From: Sinorhizobium fredii
GTDB lineage: Bacteria; Pseudomonadota; Alphaproteobacteria; Rhizobiales; Rhizobiaceae
Direction: 5' to 3'
NCBI RefSeq assembly: GCF_002944405.1
Contig: NZ_CP024310.1
Span: 372,001-436,000 of the forward strand
DNA length: 64,000 nt
Part shown: in pieces, positions 14,960 to 45,177 of the stretch
How the letters are laid out: the number at the start of each line of letters is the position of its first letter
Position numbering within the stretch: the stretch's first letter is position 1
The notes under the pieces: generated by a model
Told to the model about the DNA's origin: nothing
Seen by the model: the letters and a program-made list of their open reading frames with translations, nothing else
The model's database searches: none
Translations under genes and position numbers: made by a program

Positions 14960-15017
14960 AGACCTTGGTCGGATATCTGCCCCCGTCTTTCGGACCAGTC
15001 TCCAATGACAAAGGTCT
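14960..15017. promoter_or_regulatory. Shared dyad motif cluster, copy 1
   Basis: Within the 457-base gap before the gene at 15177 lie AGACCTTGGTCGGA (14960-14973, plus), AGACTGGTCCGA (14990-15001, minus) and AGACCTTTGTC (15007-15017, minus). The same words recur at 15608, 18471 and 45145. Nothing else was recognised in this gap. Confidence 0.55.
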
Positions 15018-15176
15018 AAGGAGGACGTTTCAGTGGAACGAAAGACCATGGAACCGCATAGCTGCCGTTGAGGTAGTGCCGGCTCGGCTGGCACGAGCGT
15101 GAAGGCTAGCGGCAATGCCGGCCGGTCTGACGCGGCGGGGATTTTACCTCGCGTCCCACACGAATGGAGATGCGCG

Positions 15177-15371
15177 ATGCGATACAGAATATCGGCCTAT
15201 CCGGAACGAGAAGCCCGCAGCGGAATACCCGTCGCATTGATGCTTGCGATGATCGCTGTGTTGAGCGCCTATCTGTTCGTCGGGGATTTGCTCACGGAGC
15301 CCCGCCAGCAAACCCGTGTCTATCCACCTGATGCCGTCACAATGGTCGAAAGCGCGGACAAGGCGCCATAA
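15177..15371 (+). CDS. Small single-pass membrane protein
   Basis: 64 residues: a short basic N-terminus, one membrane segment (about 17-36, IPVALMLAMIAVLSAYLFVG) and a polar tail ending SADKAP. I do not recognise the family. The ATG at 15177 is preceded by GGAGATGCG; the coding frame extends upstream but reads unlike protein. The shared dyad cluster lies 160-220 bases upstream, so it may be controlled with the Gly/Asn-repeat proteins and the two-component system next to it. Confidence 0.6.
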   Translation: MRYRISAYPEREARSGIPVALMLAMIAVLSAYLFVGDLLTEPRQQTRVYPPDAVTMVESADKAP

Positions 15372-15418
15372 CGAGTGGGGCCCTGTCGTGACCTGGACTT
15401 CCGCCGCACGGCGCATCG

Positions 15419-15663
15419 GCCCTTGGTCTGATCGGCACGCGCATAGGTCTGAGTGCTGAGGAGAAAAGGAACTTATAGGCGAAAGTGCTGTTCTTGACGC
15501 AAATCTTCGCGCAGCGCCGTCCCTTCCTGCGCGGGGGTCGAGCTCGCCGGTTCCATCCGGCGGGCTCTCTTTGTCGCTGCGGCCCGATGGCCAAGCCGAT
15601 CTCTTTCAGACCTTGGTCGGAAGTGGGCTGGGCGAATGTCCAGACGCGACGTGAGAAAGGTCC
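15419..15663. promoter_or_regulatory. Shared dyad motif cluster, copy 2
   Basis: The 453-base gap before the gene at 15825 contains CCCTTGGTCTGA near 15420, ATAGGTCTGA near 15441, AGACCTTGGTCGGA at 15608-15621 (plus) and GGACCTTTCTC at 15653-15663 (minus). The last two are about 44 bases centre to centre, as in copy 1 (45 bases). No other element was recognised here. Confidence 0.5.
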
Positions 15664-15824
15664 AAGAACACTCGTTAAGGCAAGCCGCGGGTTGACGATT
15701 GATTTGCGCCGTGGGCAAGGTATTGCGAGAAAGGCGAGCACGAAGATCGCCGGATCGGCTCGACTCCAATAAGCCGGCCTTTGCTCGTCATGCTGATAGC
15801 CACTGCCAGGCGAATGGTGCGCCA

Positions 15825-16289
15825 ATGATTTTTCTTAGCAGCAATGCCAAGACCAGCGGACGAAAGTTCGTGGCGGTCCTGTGCACCGTGACGATCGGCT
15901 TCGTCTTCGCAGGCCTGCCTTACAAGGCAACCCTGTCCGACTCCGCGCTCGAACTCTCGCTTCAATCCGCCCTCGCCAAGAATGGTGGCAATGGCGGCGG
16001 CAATGGCAATGGTGGCGGCAATGGCGGCGGCAACGGCAATGGCGGCGGTAACGGCAATGGAAAGGGCGGTTCGAACAGCAGCAGTTCGAGCAGCAGTTCC
16101 AGCGGAGCGAGGGTAAAAGGTGCGGCGGTCGGAACCTTCGGCTCGATCTTGAAAATTCGCCATGTCGAAGGAATAAGCGAAGAAATCAAAAACGGCCGCT
16201 ACATCATGAAAGACGGCCGCGGGCGCACCATTGTGAACCGGCGCGCGACGTCGGCTGACCAGAAGCGGCTGCTATCCCTTATTGACTGA
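15825..16289 (+). CDS. Secreted Gly/Asn-repeat protein
   Basis: 154 residues. A signal peptide or anchor spans about 14-34 (FVAVLCTVTIGFVFAGLPY). A low-complexity block of GGN/GNG repeats (about 50-85) follows, then a Ser run, then a C-terminal domain of about 50 residues (SILKIRHVEGISEEIKNGRY, RTIVNRRATSADQKRLLSL) that looks folded and basic. The repeats are in-frame GGC-GGC-AAT codons, so they are prone to length change. The gene converges on the response regulator at 16279 with an 11-base overlap. It shares the GGNGGG block with the protein at 18602 on the other side of the two-component genes. Function unknown; an extracellular or envelope role is inferred. Confidence 0.75.
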   Translation: MIFLSSNAKTSGRKFVAVLCTVTIGFVFAGLPYKATLSDSALELSLQSALAKNGGNGGGNGNGGGNGGGNGNGGGNGNGKGGSNSSSSSSSSSGARVKGAAVGTFGSILKIRHVEGISEEIKNGRYIMKDGRGRTIVNRRATSADQKRLLSLID

Positions 16290-16932
16290 GCGGGCGGTCG
16301 AGGGCGTCGCGCAGCACCATCGCCGCCTCGGTCCGGTTGGCGACGTCTAGCTTTGCCATGATCTGCGTCATGTGGTGCTTGATCGTCTTCTCGTGCAGAT
16401 TGAGCTTGCGAGCGACCTGCTTGTTGCTCATTCCTGATGCGACGAGATTGAGAACCTCTCGCTCCCGAGTGGTCAGGTCGTGGATCAGGTCGAACTTGCT
16501 TGCCGAGGGGGGTGCGCTGTTGGACAGGAGTTTGGCCGACAGTGTCGGAGCCACGTAGCTTTCGCCGGAGGCGACGGCGCGGATGACATCCGCCAGCGCT
16601 CTCGATCCGATCCCCTTGAGGATATAGCCCTTGGCGCCGCCCTGCAGGGCGGCCTTGACGTCGTCGCCTGCCTCCGAAACGGTGAGCATGACGATCTTCT
16701 GCGCCGGAGCGATCTGAAGAATAAGCGGCACCGCCTCGAGTCCGCTCCCGGGCATCGAGATATCGAGCAGCATCACGTCGGGCGCCAGGTTCTCGGCAAT
16801 TCTCAGCGCATCGTCGCGCGAGCCGCCTTCGGCTACAATTTCGAAGCCTTCGAGCTCCGATAGACTCCTCGTCACCCCCTCTCTGAACAGAGGGTGATCG
16901 TCGATCACCGCAACGCGAATCGCAGTCGTCAT
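16279..16932 (-). CDS. NarL/FixJ-type response regulator
   Basis: 217 residues: receiver domain (about 1-125) with the acidic pair in VIDDHPLFREGV, the phospho-acceptor Asp in MLLDISMPG, Thr in VMLTVSEAG and Lys in GYILKGIG. The LuxR-type helix-turn-helix lies at about 145-205 (LTTREREVLNLVASGMSNKQ and the recognition helix EKTIKHHMTQI). It overlaps the upstream sensor-kinase gene by 4 bases, so the two are cotranslated partners. The dyad motifs around 14.96, 15.6 and 18.47 kb are good candidates for its binding sites. Confidence 0.93.
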   Translation of the reverse strand: MTTAIRVAVIDDHPLFREGVTRSLSELEGFEIVAEGGSRDDALRIAENLAPDVMLLDISMPGSGLEAVPLILQIAPAQKIVMLTVSEAGDDVKAALQGGAKGYILKGIGSRALADVIRAVASGESYVAPTLSAKLLSNSAPPSASKFDLIHDLTTREREVLNLVASGMSNKQVARKLNLHEKTIKHHMTQIMAKLDVANRTEAAMVLRDALDRPLSQ

Positions 16933-18371
16933 AGCTGCCCCACCTCCTCGATGCCGAGCGACATCCGGACAACCGTGCCCGGAGCGGCGCCGTTCAGTTC
17001 AAATGTTCCGCCGAGACTTTCTATCCGCTCTCTCAGACCGGCAAGCCCGAGGCTCGTCGGCCTCACTTTGTCGGGATCGAAACCGGGCCCGCCATCGGCT
17101 ACCTCGATCCGCACCCTGTTGCCGTCCATGCTCTGCACGACACGCTGCCCAACGCCTCCGCCGTGTCGGTAGGCATTGTTCAACGCCTCCTGCACAAAAC
17201 GGTATATGCATATCTTCGCCGAGGGGGAAAGGTGATCCGGCGGACGGGACAGCGACAAATCCACAGCCGAGCCGGTTCGCTGCCGGTGGGCGTGGACACA
17301 GCGCTCGAGTATCTCTCGCAGGCTCGCCGTTTCGATCTGCGGCAGGACCAGCCCGTTGCATATGGTTCGGATCTCACGCATCGCCTCGTCGAGACTTGCC
17401 TTGATGGCGGCGACCTCGCGTTCGCGCTTGTCTGTCGGGGTCGCCGTGCTCATCAACGCCTCGCTATCTACCCTCAGCGAGGCATAGGCCAGCAGTTGAG
17501 CGGGGCCATCATGCAGGTCCGCACCGATCCGGCGCAGCATCTGTTCGTTGAGAGCCGTGGCCCGCTGCGACGCCTGCTGCAAGCGCCCGCGCAGCATCTC
17601 ATTCTGCTCAAGCAGTGCGGAAAGTTCCTCGACGCGCTGCTTGAGGGCGAGGCGCTGCTTGTCGATCGTCCTGCTGCCGCGCATCACGATTGCCGAAAGC
17701 ATGATGAAGAATGCAAGCGTAAAGCCCGCAACGGCCAGCCACGTCTGGATTCTGGCCCGGCCCAGGCTGAGCTCGAAATCATTGGCAATCTCATGAAACT
17801 CGGAGACGGCGACCACCTGTCCCGACCAGGGCTGCAGCACGGGATTGTAGATTTCGAGAAGCGGCTTGTTTGCTGCGCGCTCGGTCTCGCCATCGAGATC
17901 GTCTACCGGCGTGAACTGAGCCACGACGTCGCCGTCGAATGCCGCCTTCAGTTCAGGACTTAGCTCGAACCGTTTTCCGACCATGCTCTCTTCATTCGCG
18001 TAGAGGATGGTGCCGTCCGCCCGCCAAAGTCGAAACGCCAGCAAACGGCCACCGAGCGCGCCCTGGCCAAGTGTCTCGTCGAGCGCACGCGAAACGGTAT
18101 CGTCGAGAACTTCTGTCGTCTGCATGTCCGGCAGCAGAGGCGCAATCACGCTGTCGACGTAGAGCGCTGTCGTCGCCGCCGAGTTTCGGGTGACGGCGTC
18201 CTCGATAAGGCTCGTGACGAACGCGCCCACCACGATCATTGCCGTGGCGGCGACGATCCCGCCGGCCATCAGGAACTGCTTCGCCAGGGGCTGGGCGTTC
18301 CATCTTGTGATCAGGTCTTTGGCGCGCACGACAAATCTCGGGCCTGTCCGCTCGATTCGTTGGCGGCACAT
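16929..18371 (-). CDS. Membrane sensor histidine kinase (HisKA_3 type)
   Basis: 480 residues. Two membrane segments (about 23-46 and 245-265) bracket a periplasmic sensing domain of about 200 residues. A coiled linker (EELSALLEQNEMLRGRLQQA) follows. The phospho-acceptor His lies in RIGADLHDGPAQLLAY and the ATPase motifs are EALNNAYRHGG and VADGGPGFDP. Autophosphorylates and hands phosphate to the response regulator encoded 4 bases into its end. The ATG at 18371 is preferred; the frame runs upstream to 18512 with atypical residues. The promoter region is shared with the divergent repeat protein at 18602 and holds a dyad motif. Confidence 0.92.
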   Translation of the reverse strand: MCRQRIERTGPRFVVRAKDLITRWNAQPLAKQFLMAGGIVAATAMIVVGAFVTSLIEDAVTRNSAATTALYVDSVIAPLLPDMQTTEVLDDTVSRALDETLGQGALGGRLLAFRLWRADGTILYANEESMVGKRFELSPELKAAFDGDVVAQFTPVDDLDGETERAANKPLLEIYNPVLQPWSGQVVAVSEFHEIANDFELSLGRARIQTWLAVAGFTLAFFIMLSAIVMRGSRTIDKQRLALKQRVEELSALLEQNEMLRGRLQQASQRATALNEQMLRRIGADLHDGPAQLLAYASLRVDSEALMSTATPTDKREREVAAIKASLDEAMREIRTICNGLVLPQIETASLREILERCVHAHRQRTGSAVDLSLSRPPDHLSPSAKICIYRFVQEALNNAYRHGGGVGQRVVQSMDGNRVRIEVADGGPGFDPDKVRPTSLGLAGLRERIESLGGTFELNGAAPGTVVRMSLGIEEVGQL

Positions 18372-18446
18372 CGTTCGATTGATGCCGATATAACTACCGT
18401 CTCCTATAGGCGGGTCAATGGCACGCCACGTTTGCGCTGGTGGCTC

Positions 18447-18484
18447 GGACCTTTTGTGGCCCGTTCTGTCAGACCTAGGTCCGA
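18447..18484. promoter_or_regulatory. Shared dyad motif cluster, copy 3
   Basis: CGGACCTTTTGTGG (from 18447) and AGACCTAGGTCCGA (18471-18484) in the 230-base divergent region between the sensor kinase and the EF-hand-like repeat protein. The second word contains the palindrome GACCTAGGTC. Spacing of about 24 bases matches copy 4 at 45.15 kb. Confidence 0.55.
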
Positions 18485-18601
18485 GAAGCCAGCGCAATAG
18501 TCCGACAGCCATGGTGGCGCGACCCCGCTCAAGCTACCGTCGCCTTGGTAAGAAATCTGACGCCTCCAAGCATGAGGCAAGTGAAACCAAGGAGGCCGGC
18601 T

Positions 18602-19696
18602 ATGGCTATTTCCAAGACAATCGGAAGGAGCGTCCTTGCCCTGGCGATCGCGGTCGCTCCTCTTGCAACCGTGACCTTCGGCGCCTCGGGTGTTGCTTTT
18701 GCCAAGGGCGGCAATGGCGGCGGCAATGGCGGCGGAAACGGCGGTGGCAATGGCGGCGGCAACGGAGGCGGTCATGGCGGCGGCCAGAGCAAGTCGCATT
18801 CCGGCAGTGGCAAGCAGGACAAAGCGCGGTCTGGCAAGAGCCATGGCGACAAGACTCTGAAGTCGCTCTTTTCGCGCGGGACCAAGTCGAAGAAGACGAT
18901 CAAGGCAGCCAAGCCAGTGAAGTCTGGACACGTCGCGGCGGGCAAGCCGAAGACGGTTGAACCTGAAAAGGTAAAGCTTGGCTCGGGGTTCAGTTCTCTG
19001 AACCGGAACTATCACGCCTATCTCAACTCCAACGATCCACGCATGGCAGCGATCTCGGCTTATGCGATTGCCTATGCCGAGTTCGAAGCTGAGAACGGCA
19101 TCGACGCCATCCCCACCGATCCTGCCCTGAGCGACGAGGCGCTCCGCGAAGCACTCGAAAGCTTCGATAAGGACGGCGTCGTGACCGACGACGACCTTCT
19201 CGAGGTCAAGGAGATACTCGGCGTCGGGCCAGCAACCGGCAAGATCGACCAGATACGCGAAACGCTGCCTGACACGTCGGATACATTGGACACGTCGGAC
19301 GCCTCGGATAGTTCAGACCTTTCGGACACGGATCCGTTGGACCCGGATGAGGAACTTGAGAGCGCCGTGCGCGGTTCGGGGTTCAGTTCGCTGAACCGGA
19401 ATTATCACGCCTATCTCAACTCCAACGACCCGCGGATGGCCGCGATCTCCGACTATGCGATTGCCTATGCGGAGTTCGAGGCTGAGAACGGTTCCGACGC
19501 CATCGCGACCGATCCGGCCTTGAGCGACGAAGCGCTTCGCGAGGCACTCGAGAGTTTCAGCAAGGATGGCGTCGTAACCGACGACGATCTCGCCGAGGCT
19601 AAAGAGATACTCGGCGTCGGACCGGAGTTCGGCAAGATCGACGAGATACGTGAAACGCTGCCGGAAACAGCTGACGACCTGGGTGTTGCGGAGTAA
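18602..19696 (+). CDS. Secreted Gly/Asn-repeat protein with two EF-hand-like modules
   Basis: 364 residues. A signal peptide (about 1-35, ending GVAFAKG) leads into a GGN-GGG repeat block (about 36-60) and a Lys/Ser-rich basic stretch (about 60-125). Two near-identical modules of about 95 residues follow (about 127-222 and 258-353). Each begins GSGFSSLNRNYHAYLNSNDP and carries an EF-hand-like loop, S-F-D-K-D-G-V-V-T-D-D-D in the first and SFSKDGVVTDDD in the second. An acidic Asp/Ser linker joins them. The loop spacing fits calcium ligands at positions 3, 5 and 12 but lacks Asp at position 1, so calcium binding is possible, not certain. It is divergent from the sensor kinase. Likely surface or matrix protein. 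Confidence 0.78.
   Translation: MAISKTIGRSVLALAIAVAPLATVTFGASGVAFAKGGNGGGNGGGNGGGNGGGNGGGHGGGQSKSHSGSGKQDKARSGKSHGDKTLKSLFSRGTKSKKTIKAAKPVKSGHVAAGKPKTVEPEKVKLGSGFSSLNRNYHAYLNSNDPRMAAISAYAIAYAEFEAENGIDAIPTDPALSDEALREALESFDKDGVVTDDDLLEVKEILGVGPATGKIDQIRETLPDTSDTLDTSDASDSSDLSDTDPLDPDEELESAVRGSGFSSLNRNYHAYLNSNDPRMAAISDYAIAYAEFEAENGSDAIATDPALSDEALREALESFSKDGVVTDDDLAEAKEILGVGPEFGKIDEIRETLPETADDLGVAE
18983..19662 (+). repeat. Intragenic direct duplication of about 287 bases
   Basis: Bases 18983-19269 recur at 19376-19662, offset exactly 393 bases (131 codons), at roughly 90% identity by eye. They encode the two EF-hand-like modules. The spacer encodes the Asp/Ser linker only. Confidence 0.85.
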
Positions 19697-19763
19697 ACCT
19701 GAGTTCGGACGGTGCCGGCAGCAGCCGGCATCCGTCCGCAATCCGTTTGGGGCGGCTTGATCC

Positions 19764-20555
19764 ATGAATTTGCAGACACGCGACGACGCAACTTGCGGTG
19801 CTGTGCGGGCGATGCAGCACGGACGGATCGGGTTTTCCCTGCAACAGATAAACGCCGTCGCTGATCCAGGCGAGGTCCTCTATTCGAAATGCCTCGCGAG
19901 ATTCGTGGAGCCGGACGGTACGGTCAGAACCCGCGGAGAGTTCTCCGCTTTCCCCGGAGCGTCGCAGATCGCTCTGGCTTTCGGGCTCGATCTCCTCGAC
20001 CTGGCGTTTGAATGGCTCGCTTGCCATCCGTCGGACGTGCTCGGCTGCGACCTCTCGGCCGAGATCATAGCCGATGAGCGAAGCTGCATGGTGTTGCACG
20101 ACCTCCTCTCGCGGCACAGCGCCTTGGCGACCCGCATGGTTCTTGAGGTAACGCAGCCTCTGAAAACGCCCTTCGCCGCGAACTTGCTCGGCAGCGCCCG
20201 CGCGATGGGCTATAGAATTGCGATAGACAGGTTCGGGACCGGCAATGCGCTGTCGACCATCCCGGTCGATCTCGTGAAAATCGACGCATGTTTTGCGCAG
20301 CACCGCCTGGGTGATGCCGCGCCGATCCTGCGTGACCTGGTCGCTCTGGCCTCCTTTGCGGCATCGATTGTGGTTGTCGAAGGCATCGAAACATACGATC
20401 AGCTTGAGGCCGCCAGGTGCGCCGGAGCGACACATGTGCAGGGGTTTCTCCTTTCGGAGCCGACTCTGCCGCCCGTCTATTCGCGCAGCGCACGAGCATT
20501 CAAGCGAAGATTTCGCCCAGCCTCGCTCCAGCCGCATCTGCCGCAGTGCTCGTAG
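19764..20555 (+). CDS. Degenerate EAL-domain protein
   Basis: 263 residues covering one EAL fold. Cyclic-di-GMP phosphodiesterases need EALxR, a Glu in the ELTE-type motif, DDFGTG, KID and EGVET. Here the EAL position reads SKCLAR, the next motif reads EVTQ, DDFGTG reads DRFGTGN and the end reads EGIET. At least two metal ligands are gone, so the protein is probably a binding or scaffold protein, not an enzyme. No signal or membrane segment is seen. It follows the EF-hand-like gene by 67 bases on the same strand and may be cotranscribed, hinting at a link between second-messenger state and the surface protein. Confidence 0.8.
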   Translation: MNLQTRDDATCGAVRAMQHGRIGFSLQQINAVADPGEVLYSKCLARFVEPDGTVRTRGEFSAFPGASQIALAFGLDLLDLAFEWLACHPSDVLGCDLSAEIIADERSCMVLHDLLSRHSALATRMVLEVTQPLKTPFAANLLGSARAMGYRIAIDRFGTGNALSTIPVDLVKIDACFAQHRLGDAAPILRDLVALASFAASIVVVEGIETYDQLEAARCAGATHVQGFLLSEPTLPPVYSRSARAFKRRFRPASLQPHLPQCS

Positions 20556-20582
20556 CACCGTAGCGATCGAGAGCACATTCGA

Positions 20583-21530
20583 TTAGCAGGCGGTACCTGC
20601 GACATTTGCGATCTTCTTTTCCGACCGCGAGTCCGTCGGCCGCTTCGCGCAAATTGCCCGGACGCACGCCCGCAACCAACGATGCCCCGGGTCTGCCTCG
20701 AGGCGTGGATGCCAAAGCATCGACACGGTGATCTCCGGAATGGGGATCGGAATGGGAAAACTGAACAGATCGTCACGAAGGTTGCCGGTGTGGCGCTCGG
20801 GGACGGTGGCAATCATGTCGGAGTTTTTCGCCAGCGCCAGCGCGGGAGAAAAACCGCCAACGGTTGCGGTAATCTCCCGTTCGAGACCGAGCGCCTCCAG
20901 AGCGGCATCGATCGGCCCGTTATCTCTACGGTGGCGGGCGACGAGCACGTGCTGCCCGGCGGCATAGCGGGCGGGCGTGATCTCGCCCTGGCAGAGCGCG
21001 TGTCCGACACGCACGACGCCGACGAAGCGATCCTGGAACAAGGCCTGCGTGCGGATCTCCGGGCTCTGGCTCCCGCCTACGACGCCGGTCTCCAGGTCGA
21101 CACTGCCATCCCGTAGCGGCGTGCTGTCCTTGTCGAGTTTCGGGACGAAGCGCAGCCGCACGCCCGGTGCCTCGGCGCCGGCCTTGGAGATCAGGGCCGG
21201 CCCGAAATTCTCGACGAAGCCGTCGCTCGTGCGAAGCGTGAAGGTCCGCACGAGCCGGCCGAGATCCAAACGGTCGGCAGGCCTCAGCGCCGCCTCCGCC
21301 TCCTCGACCAGGTGGCCGACGCGCTCACGCAATTCGAGCGCGCGGGGTGTCAGGACGAGGCCGCGGCCGGCCCGCACTAACAGCGGATCGCCGGTCGTAG
21401 CGCGCAAGCGCGCAAGCTGCCGGCTCATGGCGGAGGGGCTCAGCCGCAACCTTCGGGCAGCGCCGGCGACGCTTCCTTCGGCAAGCAGCACATCGAGGGT
21501 GACGAGAAGATTGAGGTCCGGATGCGACAT
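20583..21530 (-). CDS. LysR-family transcriptional regulator
   Basis: 315 residues: winged helix at the N-terminus (DVLLAEGSVAGAARRLRLSP, SAMSRQLARLR) and a periplasmic-binding-like effector domain (about 90-300). The ATG at 21530 gives MSHPDLNLLVTLDVLL, the usual beginning; an in-frame start at 21572 is less likely. It is divergent, by 122 bases, from an MFS transporter, the classical LysR arrangement, so it probably controls that gene. Confidence 0.9.
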   Translation of the reverse strand: MSHPDLNLLVTLDVLLAEGSVAGAARRLRLSPSAMSRQLARLRATTGDPLLVRAGRGLVLTPRALELRERVGHLVEEAEAALRPADRLDLGRLVRTFTLRTSDGFVENFGPALISKAGAEAPGVRLRFVPKLDKDSTPLRDGSVDLETGVVGGSQSPEIRTQALFQDRFVGVVRVGHALCQGEITPARYAAGQHVLVARHRRDNGPIDAALEALGLEREITATVGGFSPALALAKNSDMIATVPERHTGNLRDDLFSFPIPIPIPEITVSMLWHPRLEADPGHRWLRACVRAICAKRPTDSRSEKKIANVAGTAC

Positions 21531-21652
21531 GCGGGTGACGATAGCATGAATTGATACTAGCGTCAGATGCATGAATGCAATGCAAATGGTGCGTCTTCCG
21601 CCATCTCCGGCAACGGTTTACCTCTCGAGCGACGCCGATGAGAGGAACGACG

Positions 21653-23083: not shown

Positions 23084-23117
23084 GCCGGGGGCGGGTAGCC
23101 GTCCCGGCCCTTGCCGC

Positions 23118-24026: not shown

Positions 24027-24138
24027 TGATGATCGACTCCAACTTTGCTGGTTCAGCGCCGGAGGGCCGCCGACGGCGCAAATGCCGTCAGCCGGTCCCG
24101 GGCGCTCGGGTGTTCGGTCGGGATTTTGTTGCGGGTCT

Positions 24139-26241: not shown

Positions 26242-26250
26242 GTGCCCCTC

Positions 26251-34617: not shown

Positions 34618-34768
34618 GTTGTTGGTCACGTCGCCGGCAGTATCCGAATTGCTGGCGAGGAACGGGAGGACTTGCGCGGCTTATCAACCCGCCATGGCCA
34701 GCCCCTCTGTGCCGGCGTCGTTGCCGCCGTTCTGGTTGAAATCATCCGCTACCATGAACTTCCCCTTC

Positions 34769-35680: not shown

Positions 35681-35696
35681 GTGGTCCGTCCCCGAA

Positions 35697-37591: not shown

Positions 37592-39030
37592 GCTGCCTCC
37601 CGCTTGAAGGACGTGGCAAGGATGTTCTCCTCGCTCACGGCGTCGCCGGCGAGTTCCGCAACGATCTCTCCTTCGCGGAAGACATAGACACGATCGCAGA
37701 GGCAGACCTCCTCCATCTCGGTCGAATACCAGACGAAGGTGCGGCCGCGCTGAGCCTCCTGCCGGATGATCTCGTATACCTCCTGCTTCGTGCCGACGTC
37801 GACGCCGCGCATTGGATCATCCATCAGCACCACCGGCGCCCTGGTCGCGAGCGACCTGGCGAATAGCACCTTCTGCTGGTTACCGCCCGAAAGCGACAGC
37901 ATGGGGTTGGCCAAGTCCGGCGTGCGGATATCGATGCGGCGCTTCCACTCTCCGGCACGCTCGGCCTCCGCCTCGGCGTTGACGACGCCGCGCAGGGCCA
38001 GATCGTGAAGCGTGGCGATGGAGAAGTTTTTCAGGATGCTCCAGAGTTCGAAGACGCCATTCAGGCGGCGATCCCCCGCGACGAAGGTCACCGCAGGCTC
38101 GCGGCGCGGCAGCCAGTCGGCGGTGCTCGCTGCATGAAGTTTCATCAGCATTCCCGTCTGGCCGTGTCCGGCGAGACCGGCGAGCCCGACGATCTCGCCG
38201 CGTCTGGCCTCAAGGCGCAGGCCGCGACCGGTCCGCGCGATTACCACGGGCTCATGGGCAAGGTCTCGCAGCGTGCGGCGATGCGCTTCGCCCTTGACGA
38301 CGCTTCCCATGGCCTCGACGAGGCCGTGCTCGGTCCAGGCATCGCCAGGCCGTTCGGCGACGATGCGCCCGTCCTTCATGACCGCGATCCGGTTCGCCGT
38401 GGCGAGGATCTCGTGGAGGATATGGGAAATCAGAATGACCGAACCGCCGCTCGCGACGAACCGCCGGACATGGGCGAGCATCTGCTCCGCGAGGCTCGCG
38501 TCGAGCGAGGACGTCGGCTCGTCCAGGATGATGAGCCGGGGCGCAATGCCGGTATCGGAGAAAGCCATGGCGATCTCGACCATCTGCCGTTCGGCGATGG
38601 AGAGATCCCCGACCATCCTGTCGCGTTCGATGCCGTGTCCGGGAAATATGGCATCGAGGCTTCGCTCAATCACGAGCCTTGCCCGCCTGCGCCAGCCGAG
38701 GCCTCCAAGATGGCGGTGCAGGACGCGGGTATTTTCGACCACGGTGAGGTTCGGGCAGAGCGAAAGCTCCTGGAAGACGCAGCGTATGCCGCGCGCTCTG
38801 GCCGCGTTGATGCCGTAGCGCTGAAGAAGCTCGCCGTCGCCTGAAATGTTGCCCTGCTGCGGCGTCAGACCGCCATTGATGACGCTGACGATCGTCGATT
38901 TGCCGGCGCCGTTATGGCCGACGAGACCCACGCATTCCCCCGGCCGGATGGCGAGCGTCACGCCGTCGAGCGCCCTGACCGCTCCGAAACTCACCTTGGC
39001 GTCGGCAACCTCGATTATCGCCTTCGACAT
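37588..39030 (-). CDS. Sugar ABC transporter ATP-binding protein (double ATPase)
   Basis: 480 residues. Domain 1 is canonical: Walker A GLVGHNGAGKSTIVSVI, and Walker B LIILDEPTSSLD with the signature region LSIAERQMVEIAMAFS. Domain 2 has the degenerate Walker A GLAGHGQTGML, a full signature LSGGNQQKVLFARSL and VVLMDDPMRGVDVG. This asymmetry is normal for RbsA-type proteins. The ATG at 39030 gives the usual start MSKAIIEVADAKVSFGAVRA; one at 39042 is also possible. Confidence 0.93.
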   Translation of the reverse strand: MSKAIIEVADAKVSFGAVRALDGVTLAIRPGECVGLVGHNGAGKSTIVSVINGGLTPQQGNISGDGELLQRYGINAARARGIRCVFQELSLCPNLTVVENTRVLHRHLGGLGWRRRARLVIERSLDAIFPGHGIERDRMVGDLSIAERQMVEIAMAFSDTGIAPRLIILDEPTSSLDASLAEQMLAHVRRFVASGGSVILISHILHEILATANRIAVMKDGRIVAERPGDAWTEHGLVEAMGSVVKGEAHRRTLRDLAHEPVVIARTGRGLRLEARRGEIVGLAGLAGHGQTGMLMKLHAASTADWLPRREPAVTFVAGDRRLNGVFELWSILKNFSIATLHDLALRGVVNAEAEAERAGEWKRRIDIRTPDLANPMLSLSGGNQQKVLFARSLATRAPVVLMDDPMRGVDVGTKQEVYEIIRQEAQRGRTFVWYSTEMEEVCLCDRVYVFREGEIVAELAGDAVSEENILATSFKREAA

Positions 39031-39087
39031 TCTGCCCGTCATTTGCCGCTATCTGTTGTACTGGGGATCGTTTGGCACGGGGTCTGC

Positions 39088-39112
39088 CGCGCGGTCCCGA
39101 GAGAACCGCGCG
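39088..39112 (-). terminator. Hairpin after the sugar-binding protein gene
   Basis: Arms CGCGCGGT and ACCGCGCG, loop of 9, 15 bases after the binding-protein stop on the minus strand, no T-tract. Same position as the hairpin at 27004 in the amino-acid importer. Confidence 0.5.
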
Positions 39113-39127
39113 ACATATGGAAGAACA

Positions 39128-40144
39128 TCATTCCGCGGATTCGATCACCTTGATCGCATCAGCCTGCGAATATTCGACATTGGCAACACCGCCTGCCTGG
39201 GTATTGGCGAGGTTCTCTTCCAGATTGTCCTGGTCGATGCGCAGGAAGGGCACGACGAGGTCCTTCTTGACTTCCTTGCCGTCGAGGATCTGCTGGGCGA
39301 CCCAGAATGCGAGCGTCGAGACGCCGGGCGCGATCGAGACAGACATGGTCTCATAGCCGCTGGCATCCTTCTGTTCCTTCCACCACTTCAGCTCGTCCTC
39401 GCGGTTTCCCATGATGATGATCGGCGTCGGCCGGTTGGCAGCCGCGAACGCCTGGGCGGCGCCGTAGCCGTCGCCGCCCTGGGTCACGACGCCGGCGATC
39501 TCGGGAAGGCTCGGCAGGATACCCGCCACGGCCTTCTGGGCGACATCCTGCGCCCAGTCGCCATGGACGGACCCGACGATCTTGAACTGCGGGAACTGCT
39601 TGACGCCCTCGTGGATGCCCGCCGAGATCTCATCGTCGACGAAAACGCCGGCAAGGCCGCGGATCTCCAGGAGGTTCCCGCCCTCGGGCAGCTTCTTCGA
39701 CAGATATTCGACTTCGCTGCGACCCATTTCCTTGAAATTGACGGCGATCCGCCAGGCGCAAGGCTCGCTCACCACGCCGTCGAACGAGACGACGATGATG
39801 CCTGCATCGCATGCTTCCTTGACCGCGCCGTTGAGCGCCGTCGGCGAGGCGGCGTTGAGGACGATCGCGTCATAGCCCTGCAGGATCATGTTCTGAATCT
39901 GCGCGGCCTGCTCGGTCGCCTGGTTTTCCGCCGTTGTGAAGGCATCGGCAGCAGCAACCACGCCAGCCTTGACGGCCTCTCCCGTCACCTTGTCCCAGCT
40001 CGTGAGCATCGCCTGCCGCCAGGAGTTGCCGGCATAATTGTTGGAAAGCGCAATCTTCTTGCCGGAAGTGTCGGCCAACGCGGAATTCGGCATTGCGGCG
40101 CACAGGACGACCGCTGATGCCAGAAGCATCTTGCGAAATGTCAT
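39128..40144 (-). CDS. Sugar ABC transporter substrate-binding protein
   Basis: 338 residues, periplasmic-binding-protein-like I (RbsB) family, with a signal peptide (about 1-24, ending NSALA). The mature part starts SGKKIALSNNYAGNSWRQAM and includes QNMILQGYDAIVLNAASPTA and ISAGIHEGVKQF. It captures a sugar in the periplasm. First gene of the run; the sensor kinase pair reads away from it across 221 bases. Confidence 0.93.
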   Translation of the reverse strand: MTFRKMLLASAVVLCAAMPNSALADTSGKKIALSNNYAGNSWRQAMLTSWDKVTGEAVKAGVVAAADAFTTAENQATEQAAQIQNMILQGYDAIVLNAASPTALNGAVKEACDAGIIVVSFDGVVSEPCAWRIAVNFKEMGRSEVEYLSKKLPEGGNLLEIRGLAGVFVDDEISAGIHEGVKQFPQFKIVGSVHGDWAQDVAQKAVAGILPSLPEIAGVVTQGGDGYGAAQAFAAANRPTPIIIMGNREDELKWWKEQKDASGYETMSVSIAPGVSTLAFWVAQQILDGKEVKKDLVVPFLRIDQDNLEENLANTQAGGVANVEYSQADAIKVIESAE

Positions 40145-40365
40145 GTTTTCCTCCCTCTGGACCCGGCTTCGACCGGATCGCCTCATCGGCCGCTCTCTAT
40201 GCGGTCGTCTGCAAATAGGACTTGCACTGAGCTTCCTCCTCTCAGTAATGGCAGGATGAGGGAGAATTTGCCGCCTGTATAGATCGTATGCGGCAATGCG
40301 TTTGCGGACTTTTGCATTACAGGCTGCGTGTTCGTGCAAGACGAGGACGCCCTGTCGAGCGCTTA

Positions 40366-41694
40366 ATGGAGCTGGCGGTCGCAGCGCCCGAAGGGACGGG
40401 CGCGATCGCGGGAGGAACTGCGGACATGCCGCTTCTGGCGCCGGCCGCATTGGTCGATCACTATCTTGGCATATCCCGGCTGCTTGCCGGCCAGCTCGAC
40501 TTCCGCTCGGCGATCCGCGCCGTCGCTGCGGAAGTGGCGCATATCATCCCCCACGATCATCTCGACGTCTGCATCCTGATGGTCGACGGTAACTATCACA
40601 CCGCCTACGAGACCGGCATGGACACCGCCTGGGGTGATGCCGCCTCGGCGCCGGTCGTCAACAGCCCGATCCGTTCCCTTCTCTGGGGCGAGGTCGATTA
40701 CCTGCTGACGGATGATGCTATCAACGATGCGCGTTTCCACTTCGAGGGCGCCTTCAAGCGGCCGATCATCGAACAATCGCTGCGCAGTCGTCTGCACGTA
40801 CCGATGAAGGTGCAGGGCAAGATCATAGCCGCGCTCAGCTGCTCCTCTCAGAACCCCGGCCTATACACGATGGAGGACGTCGGCCGGGCGAGGATCATCG
40901 CCGACCTGCTGGCACCCTATTTCTTCGCGCTGAGGGCCGCCGAACAGGCCCAGCAATCCGCCATCGTCGAGGCGGAGGCGCGTGCGCGCGAGGAGGGTTT
41001 GCGGCAGGGCGCGTTGAAGCTGACCGAGGCGCTCGAACAGGAGCGCCAGCGCATCGGCATGGACCTTCACGACCAGACGCTTGCCGACCTTACGCGGCTG
41101 TCGCGCCGCATCGACCGCCTGGCCCGCGGCTCGGAGCTGAGCAGCGAGGCACTGGAACCCGTTTCCCGCAGTCTCCATCATTGCATGCAGGATCTGCGGC
41201 AGATCATCGAGCAGGCAAAGCCGTCCGTTTTGCAGCTCTTCGGTCTTGCCCAGGCGATCGAAAACCACCTCGACCAGTCAGTACGCGACAGTGGGATGCC
41301 GATCGAGTGGGCTCTCGTCGACGAGAGCGGGGGCGCTCTAGACGGCCTCGAGCAGACGGTCAGCGTCGCGCTTTTCAGAATTGCGCAGGAGGCGATCAAC
41401 AATGCCGTCCGCCACGCCCAGCCCACGGCAATCATCGTCGGGCTTCGGCTCGAGGCCGGCGAGCTCGCCATTGAGATTTCGGACGACGGGCGTGGTTTGG
41501 CCAGAGCCCGCGGACGCATCGGTGGCGGTATCGACAATATGAAGACGCGGGCACGGCTCATTTCCGCGAAATTCGCGATTGGACTGGGAGACAAGAACCG
41601 CGGCACGACGGTCACAGTCCTGCTGCCGCGCGGAGAGCGCCGTGCGGACCTCGAGCCCCAGCCGCAAATAGCCATCAAGGAGGATCAGCGATGA
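40366..41694 (+). CDS. GAF-domain sensor histidine kinase (HisKA_3 type)
   Basis: 442 residues, soluble. A GAF domain (about 25-190) precedes the His-containing helix RIGMDLHDQTLADLTRLSRR (H about 260). The ATPase motifs are FRIAQEAINNAVRHAQP and EISDDGRGLARAR. Start ATG at 40366 is chosen; an upstream ATG at 40288 adds 26 Arg/Cys-rich residues that look non-coding. It overlaps the response regulator by 4 bases and is divergent from the sugar importer, which it may control. Confidence 0.88.
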   Translation: MELAVAAPEGTGAIAGGTADMPLLAPAALVDHYLGISRLLAGQLDFRSAIRAVAAEVAHIIPHDHLDVCILMVDGNYHTAYETGMDTAWGDAASAPVVNSPIRSLLWGEVDYLLTDDAINDARFHFEGAFKRPIIEQSLRSRLHVPMKVQGKIIAALSCSSQNPGLYTMEDVGRARIIADLLAPYFFALRAAEQAQQSAIVEAEARAREEGLRQGALKLTEALEQERQRIGMDLHDQTLADLTRLSRRIDRLARGSELSSEALEPVSRSLHHCMQDLRQIIEQAKPSVLQLFGLAQAIENHLDQSVRDSGMPIEWALVDESGGALDGLEQTVSVALFRIAQEAINNAVRHAQPTAIIVGLRLEAGELAIEISDDGRGLARARGRIGGGIDNMKTRARLISAKFAIGLGDKNRGTTVTVLLPRGERRADLEPQPQIAIKEDQR

Positions 41695-42416
41695 AGGTAC
41701 TGATCGTGGAGGACGATCCGCTTCACCGTTCGTACCTGCATGAGGCGGTCTGTGCCGCCCTGCCCGAATGCGACACCGTCATCGAGGCGGAGAACGGCGT
41801 CGCCGGCGAGCAGCTCGCGCGCGATCACAAGTCGGCGCACATCGTCATGGACCTGCAGATGCAGACCCGCAACGGTATCGAGGCGGCACGCACCATCTGG
41901 AAAGAGCGCCCGGAGACGCGCATCCTCTTCTGGTCGAACTACTCCGACGAGGCCTATGTCCGTGGCGTGTCGCGTATCGTTCCGGACGGGGCGGCCTATG
42001 GCTATGTGCTGAAATCCGCCTCCGACGAGCGGCTGAAGCTGGCGCTTCGCTCAATTTTCGTGGAGAGCCAGTGCGTGATCGACCGCGAGGTGCGCGGTTT
42101 GCAGCAAAGAAGCATCGGCCACGCGAACAGCTTCAGCGATTCGGAATACGAGATCCTCGTCGACATCGCACTCGGTCTGACGGACCGGACGATTGCCAAG
42201 CGCCGCAACCTGTCTCTGCGCAGCGTCCAGAACCGTTTGCAGCAGCTCTACGACAAGCTCGACGTCTACCAGGCCGTTGCCGAGGAACATTCTGACAGCC
42301 AATTTAACCTGCGCGCCCGCGCCGTGACAGTCGCTTTCCTTCGGAAACTGCTGAACTACAGCGCCCTGGAAAAAGCCGAAGCCGAGCTTCAGGAATGGCT
42401 GCAGGAACAGAAGTGA
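41691..42416 (+). CDS. Response regulator with C-terminal LuxR-like DNA-binding domain
   Basis: 241 residues. Receiver (about 1-125): acidic pair in VEDDPLHRSYL, phospho-acceptor Asp in IVMDLQMQTRNG, which has Gln in place of the usual Pro, and Lys in YGYVLKSASDE. The HTH is seen in DSEYEILVDIALGLTDRTIA and LRSVQNRLQQLYDKL. Partner of the GAF kinase encoded upstream. Target is probably the divergent sugar importer. Confidence 0.88.
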   Translation: MKVLIVEDDPLHRSYLHEAVCAALPECDTVIEAENGVAGEQLARDHKSAHIVMDLQMQTRNGIEAARTIWKERPETRILFWSNYSDEAYVRGVSRIVPDGAAYGYVLKSASDERLKLALRSIFVESQCVIDREVRGLQQRSIGHANSFSDSEYEILVDIALGLTDRTIAKRRNLSLRSVQNRLQQLYDKLDVYQAVAEEHSDSQFNLRARAVTVAFLRKLLNYSALEKAEAELQEWLQEQK

Positions 42417-43363
42417 ACCGAAGACGAGAAGGGATCCAACTCACCGCCAATTCCGAATCTGGGCAAGACCATCGAAGCAAGACGTAGTGCAGTGCCGCTA
42501 GACGTTATGACCGTGGTGTGAGCGGCGGCCGTCTGAAAGCAAACGGGGATTGGCGTACCGAGCCGAGCCCCAAGCATCGCTGGCGAATGGACGCGATTGT
42601 GCGCGCACCGAGCATGTCGAGGAGCTGACCGAGATTCTCATCCAGCACTTTGGCGGCAGCGGGGAGCAGCAACTGCTCAACACGCGCGTGCCGAGCAACG
42701 CAGGCTGATCTGAGAGGGGATGACGAGACCTTGACGAGGCGATGCGAACTGTGCATCGCCTCTCCATACTCGTCACCCCCATTCGCTGGTTGCGAGGCTC
42801 GATGTCTCGTTTGGGCCGAACCGAGCCATTCCTGTGCCGGATGTCGATGTCCGGATCGGGTGGAGAGCCGAAGTTCAATGCGATGGCGACGAACGATGAG
42901 CGCGGCGGATAGGAGGCAGACCCACACGATCCCTGACAATTACCGACCTCGATCTAAACAGCACTAAGCTCACCCGGATGGATGCTGGTCCAACTACAAT
43001 AGCAGGCAGTTTAGTGGGGTGCGAGTTTGCCAACCGACATCGCATGCACGAGCGCTCCACTCGATCACCTCAGCTGCTGACTCACAGTCCGAATGAAAGG
43101 CAGGTCATTTGTGGGCCTGAATTCGACGTGCAGACCGTTGGGCCGTTGGGAGTGGTGGGTTCCACCGCCTATGGCGTCTAGTCAGCAGAGTACTCCTCTC
43201 CTCCAGGCGGCTGCTGTCGGTCGATTTCCCGTTCCCCATAGTCGCAGGAGGGTCGAGGGGAGCCGTTCGTCATGAGCCCTGTGCACGGCTTGATTGCGAG
43301 GATGTACACTGTGGACGCAGCGCTACCTCCGTGAAAGTTCGACGCCGTTGCTGAATCACAAGC
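42417..43363. other. Gap of about 950 bases with no supported gene
   Basis: A short plus-strand frame (EHVEELTEILIQHFGGSGEQ, near 42607) reads like the end of a lost gene, but I cannot name it. Other frames are short and of atypical composition. Confidence 0.4.
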
Positions 43364-43386
43364 GCCCCTGCGTGATGAGCAGGGGC
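43364..43386. terminator. Probable terminator hairpin
   Basis: Perfect 8-base stem GCCCCTGC / GCAGGGGC with 7-base loop, followed by TTT on the plus strand, 33 bases after the minus-strand stress-protein stop. Confidence 0.45.
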
Positions 43387-43418
43387 TTTGCGAGGCGAGT
43401 GCCTGCTGAGGCAGGTGC

Positions 43419-44024
43419 CTATGGCATCATACTGCGATAGCGTTCGCGCTCGCGCCGAACCTGCTCCAAAGTATACGGGTCGGCACTGTCGTCAAACCGC
43501 GTCCATCCTTCCCCCGCGTAAATGCTCCTGCGGGCGGCAGGGTCGACGCGATTGCGTTGCTGCAGGATGGCCTCTGCTTTGAGGGCAAGACTGTCATCGA
43601 CTTTTGCGGTCACCAAGGTGCCGCCGCGGCGAACGCCCTCGGCATAGACATGGGCGTCTTCCTCATCGACGCCGGAATCCGTCAATGCACCGATCAACCC
43701 TCCGGCGGCGCCTCCAGCAACAGCCCCGGCTGCCGCCCCGGCCGCGGTAGACGCCAGCCATCCTGCCGCGACGACAGGGCCAACGCCGGGAATGGCCATC
43801 AAGCCAAGTCCCGTAAGCAGACCGACCACCCCGCCTCCTACGGCGCCGAGGCCGGCACCAGTTCCCGCGCCTTCGGCTGCGTCCGAGCCTTCGGTCGAGT
43901 AGCGGTCATCAGCATTGTTTGCAACGATGCTGATATCATCTGACGGCACGCCGGCGGCTTCGAGGTCGCTGACGGCGTCGCGGGCATCTTCGTAGTCGTC
44001 AAATAGCCCTGTTACGGTTCGCAT
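43419..44024 (-). CDS. General stress protein-type glycine-zipper protein
   Basis: 201 residues. The N-terminus VTGLFDDYEDARDAVSDLEA matches the general-stress-17M-like domain. The middle is a Gly/Ala-zipper hydrophobic hairpin (about 52-115, GAVGGGVVGLLTGLGLMAIP), and the C-terminus is charged. Related proteins are abundant under general stress in Rhizobiales. The upstream gene ends 36 bases earlier on the same strand, so the two are probably cotranscribed. Confidence 0.8.
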   Translation of the reverse strand: MRTVTGLFDDYEDARDAVSDLEAAGVPSDDISIVANNADDRYSTEGSDAAEGAGTGAGLGAVGGGVVGLLTGLGLMAIPGVGPVVAAGWLASTAAGAAAGAVAGGAAGGLIGALTDSGVDEEDAHVYAEGVRRGGTLVTAKVDDSLALKAEAILQQRNRVDPAARRSIYAGEGWTRFDDSADPYTLEQVRRERERYRSMMP

Positions 44025-44060
44025 TATCGTTCTCCTTTTGGTAAAGCACGTTTCGGGCGA

Positions 44061-44375
44061 TTACTGAGCTGTGACGTTGCCCTGATAATCGAGGGCGACG
44101 GCCACTGATTTGCCGTCCTTCATGGCAGTTGCCTGCCACACACCTTTATCGTCTAGCTTCAAGCCATTGACGCCGGTGTACCCGGCTTGTTCGATCCGCT
44201 CCTTCGCCTGAGCTTCGGTAAAGCTGTTGGCGCCTTCAACCGGCGCCGCCGGGTTCTGCGTGTCGGGAGTCGCGATCGCCGGCGTATTGCCCTCCGAAGA
44301 CGGAGTCGTTTGCGCAAACGCTGCCGTGGCCACAGCGCTCAGCAGCGCTGCCGCAGCAAAAGTCAGATTTTTCAT
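44061..44375 (-). CDS. Secreted small protein, PepSY-like
   Basis: 104 residues: signal peptide (about 1-21, ending AAFA), a Pro/Thr linker, and a C-terminal segment FTEAQAKERIEQAGYTGVNG with KLDDKGVWQATAMKDGK and VALDYQGNV, which resembles a PepSY fold. Periplasmic. Upstream lies GGAAC about 60 bases before the start, but the partner half for an RpoE2-type promoter is a poor match. Role unknown. Confidence 0.75.
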   Translation of the reverse strand: MKNLTFAAAALLSAVATAAFAQTTPSSEGNTPAIATPDTQNPAAPVEGANSFTEAQAKERIEQAGYTGVNGLKLDDKGVWQATAMKDGKSVAVALDYQGNVTAQ

Positions 44376-44788
44376 GTGTTTACCTCTTCCGAAGACCTGA
44401 ATTGATCCCCGCGCAAAGAACTCGTGGACCGGAGATTGGTTCCGGATTGCTCGTTCACAATCAGAGCACGGCCGTGAGCAGGTGCGGATTTCAGGTGGGG
44501 TTGAGCGCCTTCACGCGCCGTCGATCGTCAGCCTGGTAGTAGGCACGGGGGTGGTTTGGCAGTTGGGTAAAGGCGGGCGTCACGTCTCCCAGCGACCCGT
44601 AAGGATCAGCTCGCGAGCTGCTTCCCGGGTCTGGGAGCTTGAAGGGTCGCATAAATCAGATTGCAGGCAAAAATTAGTGACGCCGGCCCCCTGGGGTGTG
44701 ACCGCTACTGACGTCGCCAAAATAGAGCAGCATCTCTCCGAGGGGGCAGAGGATACCGCTCTCTTTTCCAAGTACTCTGCGGCACGGC
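44376..44788. other. Gap of about 410 bases with nothing recognised
   Basis: No frame with coding character, hairpin or motif stands out, apart from the promoter side of the PepSY-like gene. Confidence 0.4.
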
Positions 44789-45061
44789 TTAATAGTGGTA
44801 ATAACCGTAGATCGGCCGCGCGCGGCCTTTGCACTTGATTTCTTCCTTGTACCCGTCGTCGTCCCACTTGCGCTCGATCTTGCAGCGGCCGCGACGATAC
44901 TCTTCCTTGTAGGCTCTCCGCTCGTATCGGGGTTCGTCATAATAGCCGCGCCAACGCCAGCGGCCATGACCGCTCTCATCTTTCCAAGGATCGGCCAGTG
45001 CGGTCCCCGCACAGGCGGTCAATGCTATGCCGGCGGCGGCTAACATGGTCGCGATTTTCAT
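44789..45061 (-). CDS. Secreted Arg/Tyr-rich small protein
   Basis: 90 residues. Signal peptide (about 1-23, ending TALA) followed by a basic, aromatic mature part (GRWRWRGYYDEPRYERRAYK) with a Cys pair in GRCKIERKWDDDGYKEEIKC that could form a disulfide. I do not recognise the family. The ATG at 45061 is preferred as it begins the signal sequence. The shared dyad motif lies 84-116 bases upstream. Confidence 0.7.
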   Translation of the reverse strand: MKIATMLAAAGIALTACAGTALADPWKDESGHGRWRWRGYYDEPRYERRAYKEEYRRGRCKIERKWDDDGYKEEIKCKGRARPIYGYYHY

Positions 45062-45144
45062 GTTCAGTTTCCTTGCGCCAGGTGCCGGGTCAACGCTCAT
45101 GTGTTGAGTTGGTTTCTAAATCAGTCTGCCAACTCACATCCATA

Positions 45145-45177
45145 GGACCTTAGTCCGACTCCCAGGGGCAAAGGTCC
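45145..45177. promoter_or_regulatory. Shared dyad motif cluster, copy 4
   Basis: GGACCTTAGTCCGA (45145-45158) and, about 21 bases on by centre, AAAGGTCC (to 45177). Same words and spacing as copy 3 at 18.45 kb. It lies in the divergent region between two small exported or membrane proteins. Confidence 0.55.

Follow-up and report, generated by a model that had tools for sequence, protein, structure and literature searches.

Phased GAC-N4-GTC dyads as predicted binding sites of a NarL/FixJ-type response regulator in Sinorhizobium fredii and related genomes

In the analyzed window (64,000 nt of Sinorhizobium fredii contig NZ_CP024310.1), a dyad word recurs before several small genes and before a sensor kinase gene that adjoins a response regulator gene, which raises the question of whether these sites mark a common set of promoters and whether the adjoining regulator could act on them. 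The original prediction placed the word AGACCTWRGTCSGA at 14960, 15608, 18471, and 45145. It is exact at the first three positions, whereas the copy at 45145 has one mismatch (first letter G). All four sites are intergenic and have a partner half-word beside them, as claimed, and the proposed spacings of 44–45 and 21–24 bp were right within about one base (46, 44, 24, 21, and 21 bp were measured). The reading favored here, to which a probability of roughly 0.8 is assigned, is that phased GAC-N4-GTC pairs or arrays mark a promoter set including that of the kinase, and that the regulator encoded at 16279 is predicted to bind them and to switch the genes on. The features are listed in Table 1.

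Table 1. Sites, promoter boxes, and genes of the predicted promoter set (positions in the window).
Feature	Position	Strand	Support or remark
Distal dyad GACCTTGGTC before gene 15177	14961..14970	+	Word match, genome pair scan
Proximal dyad GACAAAGGTC before gene 15177	15007..15016	+	Genome pair scan
64-residue protein, one hydrophobic span	15177..15371	+	No Pfam family matched
Weak dyad pair GCCCTTGGTC / CGCATAGGTC, 21 bp apart	15419..15449	+	
Candidate small RNA, two hairpins, second terminator-like (15540-15567)	15480..15574	+	Fold z = -3.10, conservation
Distal dyad GACCTTGGTC before gene 15825	15609..15618	+	Exact word
Middle dyad GGCGAATGTC, 22 bp downstream of distal	15631..15640	+	Relatives mostly GACGAACGTC-like
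Proximal site GAGAAAGGTC, another 22 bp on	15653..15662	+	
Conserved TTGACG, -35-like, 29 bp past proximal site of 15825	15692..15697	+	
Gly/Asn-rich, exported-looking protein	15825..16289	+	
NarL/FixJ-type response regulator, Response_reg + GerE	16279..16932	-	Pfam, PDB, and NCBIfam matches
Sensor histidine kinase with HisKA_3 + HATPase_c; one predicted extracytoplasmic PAS-like domain between two spans	16929..18371	-	
TTGACC, -35-like box of kinase promoter, 29 bp past proximal site	18413..18418	-	
Proximal half-site facing kinase, ACAAAAGGTC	18448..18457	-	
Central dyad GACCTAGGTC, common to two divergent promoters	18472..18481	.	
Proximal site facing 18602, CGCAATAGTC	18493..18502	+	13-bp gap fixed in 40/50 loci
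Gly/Asn-rich, exported-looking protein, duplicated C-terminal segment	18602..19696	+	
Distal dyad GACCTTAGTC before gene 45277	45146..45155	+	One-mismatch word, genome pair scan
Proximal dyad GGCAAAGGTC before gene 45277	45167..45176	+	Genome pair scan
TTGCGA + GATACT, -35-/-10-like boxes at genus-typical geometry	45186..45215	+	
Small protein of the largest target family, with hydrophobic spans	45277..45576	+	

At up to two mismatches, AGACCTWRGTCSGA gave seven matches in the window, two of them being both strands of one palindrome, against a mean of 1.73 in 100 shuffles, none of which reached seven. The 13-mer GACCTWRGTCSGA has four exact matches in the 6.56-Mb genome, and all four are located inside one 30-kb stretch of the window; since the word was built from those very sites, this clustering is partly circular and was not used as proof. 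As a genome-wide signature, the lone 13-mer was rejected: its 38 matches at up to one mismatch do not exceed the 42 of the reversed control, so the single word is uninformative. When the whole genome was scanned, as the original prediction suggested, it was therefore not the word but the pair that proved special, with eight paired dyads found against none in the control. A relaxed pair pattern gave five places in the same genome (control, 0), four already known and one uncertain (C1:1936106), and a half-site followed by TTGC gave five matches (control, 2), two of them already known. In the genus, at least one pair was present in 29 of the 30 genomes scanned. By our own summation, these contained 200 pairs, and the reversed control gave 61. 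This control overstates chance for the pair too, since it yields 61 matches in 30 genomes, yet only 1 of 149 analyzed rows lies outside the gap blocks described below.

The gaps between partners are quantized, 148 of the 149 rows falling at 14–18, 25–29, or 38–40 bp, and the centre-to-centre classes are about 21–22, 32–33, or 43–46 bp. The gaps fit best to a period of ~11.25 bp, not to one of 10.5 bp. Beyond the proximal site, a -35-like box clusters at ~9, 19, 29–30, and 40 bp. The common form has TTGC at offset 9 (58 of 122 sites) and CATA at offset 31 (37 of 122), and in the promoters of the kinase and of 15825 the -35-like box is two turns further off. On the kinase side, which could be parsed in 37 of 50 loci, TTGAC is located at 28–31 bp in 30 loci, at 9 bp in four, and at 40 bp in three; on the 15825 side (21 of 50 loci parsed), the box is at 29–30 bp in 16 loci and at 19 bp in five. 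In the alignment of sites from the S. fredii genome itself, none lies over the start region.

As for the individual promoters of the window, the two dyads before 15177 are 46 bp apart from centre to centre with a partial site, GACCAGTC, at 14993 between them, and clear -35 and -10 boxes, looked for at the usual offsets in the own-genome alignment, were not found. Elsewhere in the genome, a paralogue of the 15177 protein also adjoins a pair. The four-turn spacing claimed for 15825 is present, since the outer sites are 44 bp apart, but the promoter actually holds a three-site array with an extra dyad halfway (centres at 15613.5, 15635.5, and 15657.5). The putative small RNA listed between these two genes is a further candidate member of the regulon. 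Consensus scans of 14700–19100 returned two terminators (3.8 in shuffles, i.e., not above chance) and no sigma-70 promoters (0.9 in shuffles); as neither count is above the shuffles, these lists support nothing by number.

The central dyad at 18472 has a partner on either side, 24 bp away on the kinase side and 21 bp on the 18602 side, the former retaining the right half only (AAAAGGTC). The original prediction likewise had one site facing the sensor kinase at 18371. Of 52 loci, 41 have a strict dyad no more than 200 bp upstream of the kinase gene (mean in shuffles, 0.095), and the other 11 have none there. Equal frequency inside genes, or lack of conservation in orthologous promoters, had been named as evidence against the motif. 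Instead, the dyad is conserved in those promoters, and its strict form was counted 41 times across 10.4 kb of DNA upstream of the kinase, compared with a single occurrence in the 107.6 kb coding for kinases and regulators. Before 45277, the centres of the two dyads are 21 bp apart. The leftward gene 45061, also proposed as a target, is probably not one: both the strong partner and the -35/-10-like boxes are oriented toward 45277, and no strong partner or boxes face 45061, which leaves that link unsupported. The genes preceded by sites are thus those at 15177, 15825, 18602, and 45277, whose products look secreted or membrane-bound.

A downstream family was assignable at 84 of 127 sites, and the other 43 have none. 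Of the 84, 58 stand before families that appear membrane-bound or exported and 26 before families that appear soluble, so the term "envelope regulon" fits the majority only; the set also reaches beyond the window. In the Pfam search, all small proteins of the window scored below the cut-off, and the DUF1236 target alone passed among the targets.

According to the Pfam analysis, the product of 16279 carries a receiver domain (PF00072, 75.1 bits, cut-off 30.2) and a LuxR/GerE DNA-binding domain (PF00196, 72.3 bits, cut-off 23.5), a combination that places it, by sequence, among NarL/FixJ-type response regulators. Its recognition-helix segment EKT[IV]KHHMT is kept in nearly all rhizobial orthologues among the matches listed. 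The kinase contains HisKA_3 (PF07730, 30 bits, cut-off 24) and HATPase_c (PF02518, 36.2 bits, cut-off 26.4), and the conserved His (H287) is invariant in the 26 kinases compared, in line with its predicted assignment to the HisKA_3 histidine kinases. NarL/NarP provided the best PDB match (1a04) and the best NCBIfam model for the regulator, with identical domain order, and the score against the NarL equivalog NF007935 (159.9 bits) was below the cut-off of 250; the NarX/NarQ models match the kinase core alone. The FixJ equivalog NF006900 gave 56.5 of the 255 bits needed. The rhizobial MctS/MctR system ranked second for the regulator and first for the kinase core, and scores far under the cut-offs (NF052445, 142.1 of 300 bits; NF052443, 98.9 of 700 bits) rule out identity with it. 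RpuS, a related kinase from S. fredii, is presumably the same protein as MctS. RpuS is described as fused to a symporter (PMC9100948), whereas the kinase analyzed here has two spans flanking one predicted PAS-like domain.

Since Foldseek results for the whole kinase were dominated by kinase cores, the sensor part was modeled separately (mean pLDDT 71.9). Its best match was WalK (YycG; E 1.6e-7, TM 0.52–0.65), followed by KinD, DctB, and CitA. Identity with WalK is ~13%, and the present protein differs in having a HisKA_3 core and a NarL-type regulator; the modeled likeness suggests a shared fold and gives no sign of the same signal.

The regulator is also related by sequence to DevR/DosR of mycobacteria, a member of the NarL subfamily (PDB 3c3w, 1zlk), whose box we take to be of the GAC-N4-GTC form. 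The kinases of that system, DevS/DosT, carry haem GAF domains, whereas the kinase here is predicted to have one extracytoplasmic PAS-like domain. DevR/DosR promoters are described as having close boxes, the proximal of which overlaps the -35 box, and a secondary site that is filled cooperatively (PMC3029386). The common promoter form found here, with at least two close boxes and the proximal one at or near -35, is DevR/DosR-like in this respect, and its spacing leads us to predict similar cooperative filling of primary and secondary sites. Unlike in the mycobacterial system, the inner bases, flanks, and targets are others, and the spacing occurs in two-, three-, and four-turn forms.

The following mechanism can be proposed. 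The kinase would sense something beyond the inner membrane via its PAS-like domain and then phosphorylate the regulator, the predicted binder of the dyads as side-by-side dimers. The strong distal dyad would be occupied first, and contact may then assist binding at the weaker proximal site (often G-N-C-AAAG-GTC). With distances this near to whole turns, the regulator and sigma-70 polymerase may share one face of the helix, where a contact between them would compensate for a weak -35 box (TTGCCG-like). Feedback on the kinase's own promoter would strengthen the response.

A different LuxR-type regulator might bind the dyads, the two-component pair being merely among its targets. Genome search indeed returns many related candidates (76 in genome G000 at first look), and recognition helices of the NarL type can resemble each other. 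In the family survey of 151 genomes, the regulator was encoded in 41 and the strict pair occurred in 12, all of them with a 16279-type regulator; simple counting gives a probability of 4e-8 for this co-occurrence, a value that ignores kinship, which confounds and can inflate it. The strict pair was not found in 29 of the 41 genomes having a regulator relative. In 10 of the 12 genomes with it, a pair is no more than about 3 kb away from the regulator gene. Outside the genus, the distance is at most ~3.1 kb in seven of nine, at regulator identities down to 46%, and the pair is on another contig in two of nine. The original assignment of the sites to the LuxR-type regulator is thus backed by co-occurrence and by sites near its gene in other genera. 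Together with the frequent strict dyad before the kinase, these data make a different regulator unlikely.

Binding by the 16279 regulator mainly for repression, with arrays that hold polymerase off until a signal arrives, is also improbable, if marginally less so; the divergent layout and the several sites per promoter would also suit it. Against it, the commonest form places both sites ahead of a weak -35-like box, at distances that increase in steps, and no site covers the start region in the own-genome alignment, for which reason the promoter geometry, the sole basis of this choice, suits an activator. An origin of the words as a dispersed structural repeat or as chance palindromes, with no regulator involved, could be argued from the lone word being no commoner than its control; pairing, discrete gaps, position before orthologous genes, and boxes at fixed offsets are not expected of a repeat, and the flanks of the sites differ, which makes this explanation very improbable.

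Activation by the 16279 regulator may be part of a wider scheme, namely an undescribed Rhizobiaceae surface regulon with one whole-turn rule, under which the regulator sites are two, three, or four turns apart and the -35 box follows after zero to three additional turns. Such a rule would let the regulator recruit lineage-specific small membrane proteins, and a small RNA near S. fredii and S. americanum, with the kinase loop fixed; we put forward this scheme tentatively, at slightly less than even odds. Among the matches listed from openly licensed literature, no description of the motif or regulon was found by title or abstract start, which is weak evidence of absence, and no openly licensed paper was found to contain two of five literal forms of the word, or one of them alongside a mention of rhizobium. 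The available part of an S. meliloti start-site study reports three de novo motifs, none of which is this dyad by description (PMC3616915).

Since the majority of products with an assigned family resemble small membrane or exported proteins that lack a known function, the response would likely serve in remodeling or protecting the cell surface. The genus Sinorhizobium includes model nitrogen-fixing symbionts, and surface responses matter in soil and root infection. The phase rule, drawn from 137 distinct natural site pairs, offers a ready series for studying regulator–polymerase cooperation at varied distances. Several small-protein families without a known function may now be approached through a candidate regulator and through rules for its sites and promoters, as a way to ask what their role is.

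The original prediction took a shared word at 14960, 15608, 18471 and 45145 as the mark of a LuxR-type two-component envelope regulon, and all four positions were located correctly, the one at 45145 with one mismatch. As a genome signal, the lone word is weak (38 matches of the 13-mer with up to one mismatch in the S. fredii genome versus 42 for the reversed control), whereas the pair of a distal GAC-N4-GTC dyad and a weaker proximal site is strong. The pattern GACYTWRGTC-N12-42-AARGTC gave eight matches, namely, the four places in the window and four elsewhere, and none in the control. Summed over 30 genomes of the genus, pair matches numbered 200 versus 61 control matches, with at least one match in 29 genomes.

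According to the analysis of 149 of the 150 pair matches listed, the gap was 14–18 bp in 111, 25–29 bp in 19, 38–40 bp in 18, and 35 bp in one. The best-fitting period over 137 distinct sequences was approximately 11.25 bp; a period of 10.5 bp fits somewhat worse. The proximal site had the form G-N-C-AAAG/AAAA-GTC in 59 of the 111 two-turn cases (GCCA 29, GGCA 16, GACA 9, GTCA 5), so that in many cases it amounts to a weaker version of the GAC-N4-GTC dyad. The 44-bp spacing before gene 15825 was resolved into three sites 22 bp apart, the middle one being kept in most of 25 aligned rows.

The strict dyad was found within 200 bp before the kinase gene in 41 of 52 loci (shuffled mean 0.095; one further locus, cut off, was left out); in the coding DNA of the kinases and regulators, 107.6 kb in all, its word occurred a single time. 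This upstream region lacked a strict dyad in 11 of the 52 loci (L050, L063, L065, L069, L071, L072, L074, L076, L077, L078, and L080). A strict pair was present in 12 of 151 family genomes and a regulator relative (E-value 1e-40 or better) in 41 of the same genomes. All 12 fall among these 41, the other 29 containing no pair under the strict pattern. By simple counting, the probability of this co-occurrence is 4e-8, or 2e-6 for the nine genomes outside the genus, kinship making both figures too small. The proximity of pair and regulator gene appears more telling than this probability: a pair lies within approximately 3.1 kb of the regulator gene in seven of the nine (G063, G099, G101, G103, G131, G156, and G160) and likewise near it in all three strict-pair genomes of the genus. 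Genomes G095 and G172 have a strict pair, with none inside this distance. The recognition-helix segment EKT[IV]KHHMT is common to nearly all rhizobial orthologues shown and absent from enterobacterial relatives.

By its domains, the regulator is a member of the NarL/FixJ family; it scores below the cut-off of every NCBIfam equivalog shown, including NarL, FixJ, and MctR. The 64-kb window sits on a 1.70-Mb replicon (contig C4) of the 6.56-Mb genome (G000). The regulator shows 97% identity to its counterpart in Sinorhizobium americanum CFNEI 156, an identical protein is encoded on a plasmid entry for Sinorhizobium sp. CCBAU 05631, and large plasmids of S. fredii NGR234 and S. meliloti likewise carry it. 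In S. meliloti RCAM1115 plasmid p_2 (L112), the two-component genes have minCDE on one side and a stretch with an L,D-transpeptidase and an EAL protein on the other, which is consistent with a surface or division context. The kinase model contains two membrane-span-like helices flanking one extracytoplasmic PAS-like domain, followed by a HisKA_3/HATPase core. Modelled separately (mean pLDDT 71.9), the extracytoplasmic domain matches the sensor domains of WalK, KinD, DctB, and CitA; these matches suggest that the signal is periplasmic.

In sites spanning 30–47 bp, TTGC starts 9 bases past the proximal GTC in 58 of 122, and CATA occurs at offset 31 in 37 of 122. Among the 37 of 50 loci with a parseable kinase promoter, 30 had TTGAC 28–31 bp past the proximal site, four had it at 9 bp, and three at 40 bp; among the 21 of 50 with a parseable 15825 promoter, the distance was 29–30 bp in 16 loci and 19 bp in the other five. 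Successive distances differ by roughly ten bases, which approximates one helical turn. In Rhizobium loci L055, L057, L061, L073, and L075, the -35-like box of the 15825-type promoter stands approximately 11 bases (one helical turn) nearer to the proximal site, and the boxes are kept. The central dyad at 18472 appears to serve two divergent directions, and the gap to its partner toward 18602 is fixed at 13 bp in 40 of 50 loci. A sigma-70 scan of 14700–19100 reported no promoter; the boxes are thus weak by the usual consensus.

The pair and regulator searches gave 127 distinct sites across all loci, and a downstream family was assigned for 84 of them, leaving 43 without assignment. Membrane- or exported-looking targets, judged by hydropathy and N-termini, accounted for 58 of the 84. 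These frequencies are not independent, since the sites were chosen for bearing the pair, many are mutually orthologous, and the families were drawn from the same sites.

Features of the window and target families downstream of the dyad pairs
Feature	Window position (strand)	Assigned sites (of 84)	Remark
Hydrophobic small proteins	45277-like	25	
88–91-residue family		9	soluble-looking
DUF1236-type proteins		8	
Gly/Asn-rich proteins	15825-like	6	
Sensor histidine kinase	16929–18371 (-)	6	
One-span proteins	15177-like	5	
68-residue protein		4	may resemble ribbon-helix-helix proteins; no match in Pfam search
193-residue family		4	exported-looking
Short Gly-rich proteins		4	
Four small groups		13 together	soluble-looking
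Response regulator	16279–16932 (-)		
Gly/Asn-rich product	18602–19696		segment around SLNRNYHAYLNSNDPRMAAIS in two near-identical copies; no Pfam family above cut-off
FMN riboswitch	1909–2055		ordinary; RF00050, 113 bits

Word-based searches, which miss the paralogues found by family assignment, returned nine proteins for 45277, including itself (those with a named source came from Bradyrhizobium sp. BRP14, Ensifer mexicanus, and S. medicae), and six for 15177, the named ones from Sinorhizobium; these relatives bear generic or automatic names only. Elsewhere in genome G000, paralogues of both proteins adjoin pairs at L119 (G000:C4:512994) and L114 (G000:C1:2187898); at L114, the 15177 paralogue is divergent and the pair faces another small gene. 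At L113 (G000:C1:592378), a gene for a 68-residue protein begins 123 bp past a pair; the place also fits a relaxed pair on the opposite strand, so a double promoter is possible. A pattern limited to the half-site and TTGC matched at C1:602634, C1:1858424, and C2:164777 of this genome.

The DNA between 15177 and 15825 contains a further, weaker pair with sites at 15419 and 15440, 21 bp from each other. This pair is followed by a block that is conserved in L031, L034, and L035, with a shorter part in L032; the block also occurs in nine plasmid records, each from Sinorhizobium. Within what was searched, the whole stretch at 15413–15574, weak pair included, was confined to Sinorhizobium/Ensifer records. 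L035 keeps the block at 83% though the 15177 gene has no match in that locus. The segment 15480–15574 folds into hairpins (z = -3.10; 1 of 200 shuffles folds equally well) and may be considered a candidate small RNA; an Rfam search found no matching family there. Its last hairpin is terminator-like, the terminator predictions in the scan being not above chance in number. The penultimate hairpin has a 12-nt loop with UCCCUUCC, which could pair with ribosome-binding sites.

The pair, its phase, placement, conservation, and link to the regulator can be read from sequence comparison. Mechanistically, the kinase would phosphorylate the regulator, which would fill the sites cooperatively, distal then proximal, and touch sigma-70 polymerase on the same DNA face; the site in the kinase promoter would give positive feedback. 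The closest mechanistic parallel is DevR/DosR, whose box resembles GAC-N4-GTC. According to a DevR/DosR study, its promoters commonly have boxes close together, the proximal one overlying the -35 box, and a secondary site is filled cooperatively (PMC3029386). On sequence grounds, the gene set marked by the dyad pair is a real and widespread two-component regulon of the known NarL type, undescribed as far as literature searches go. It follows a clean helical-phase rule, with small surface-type proteins as its main predicted targets.
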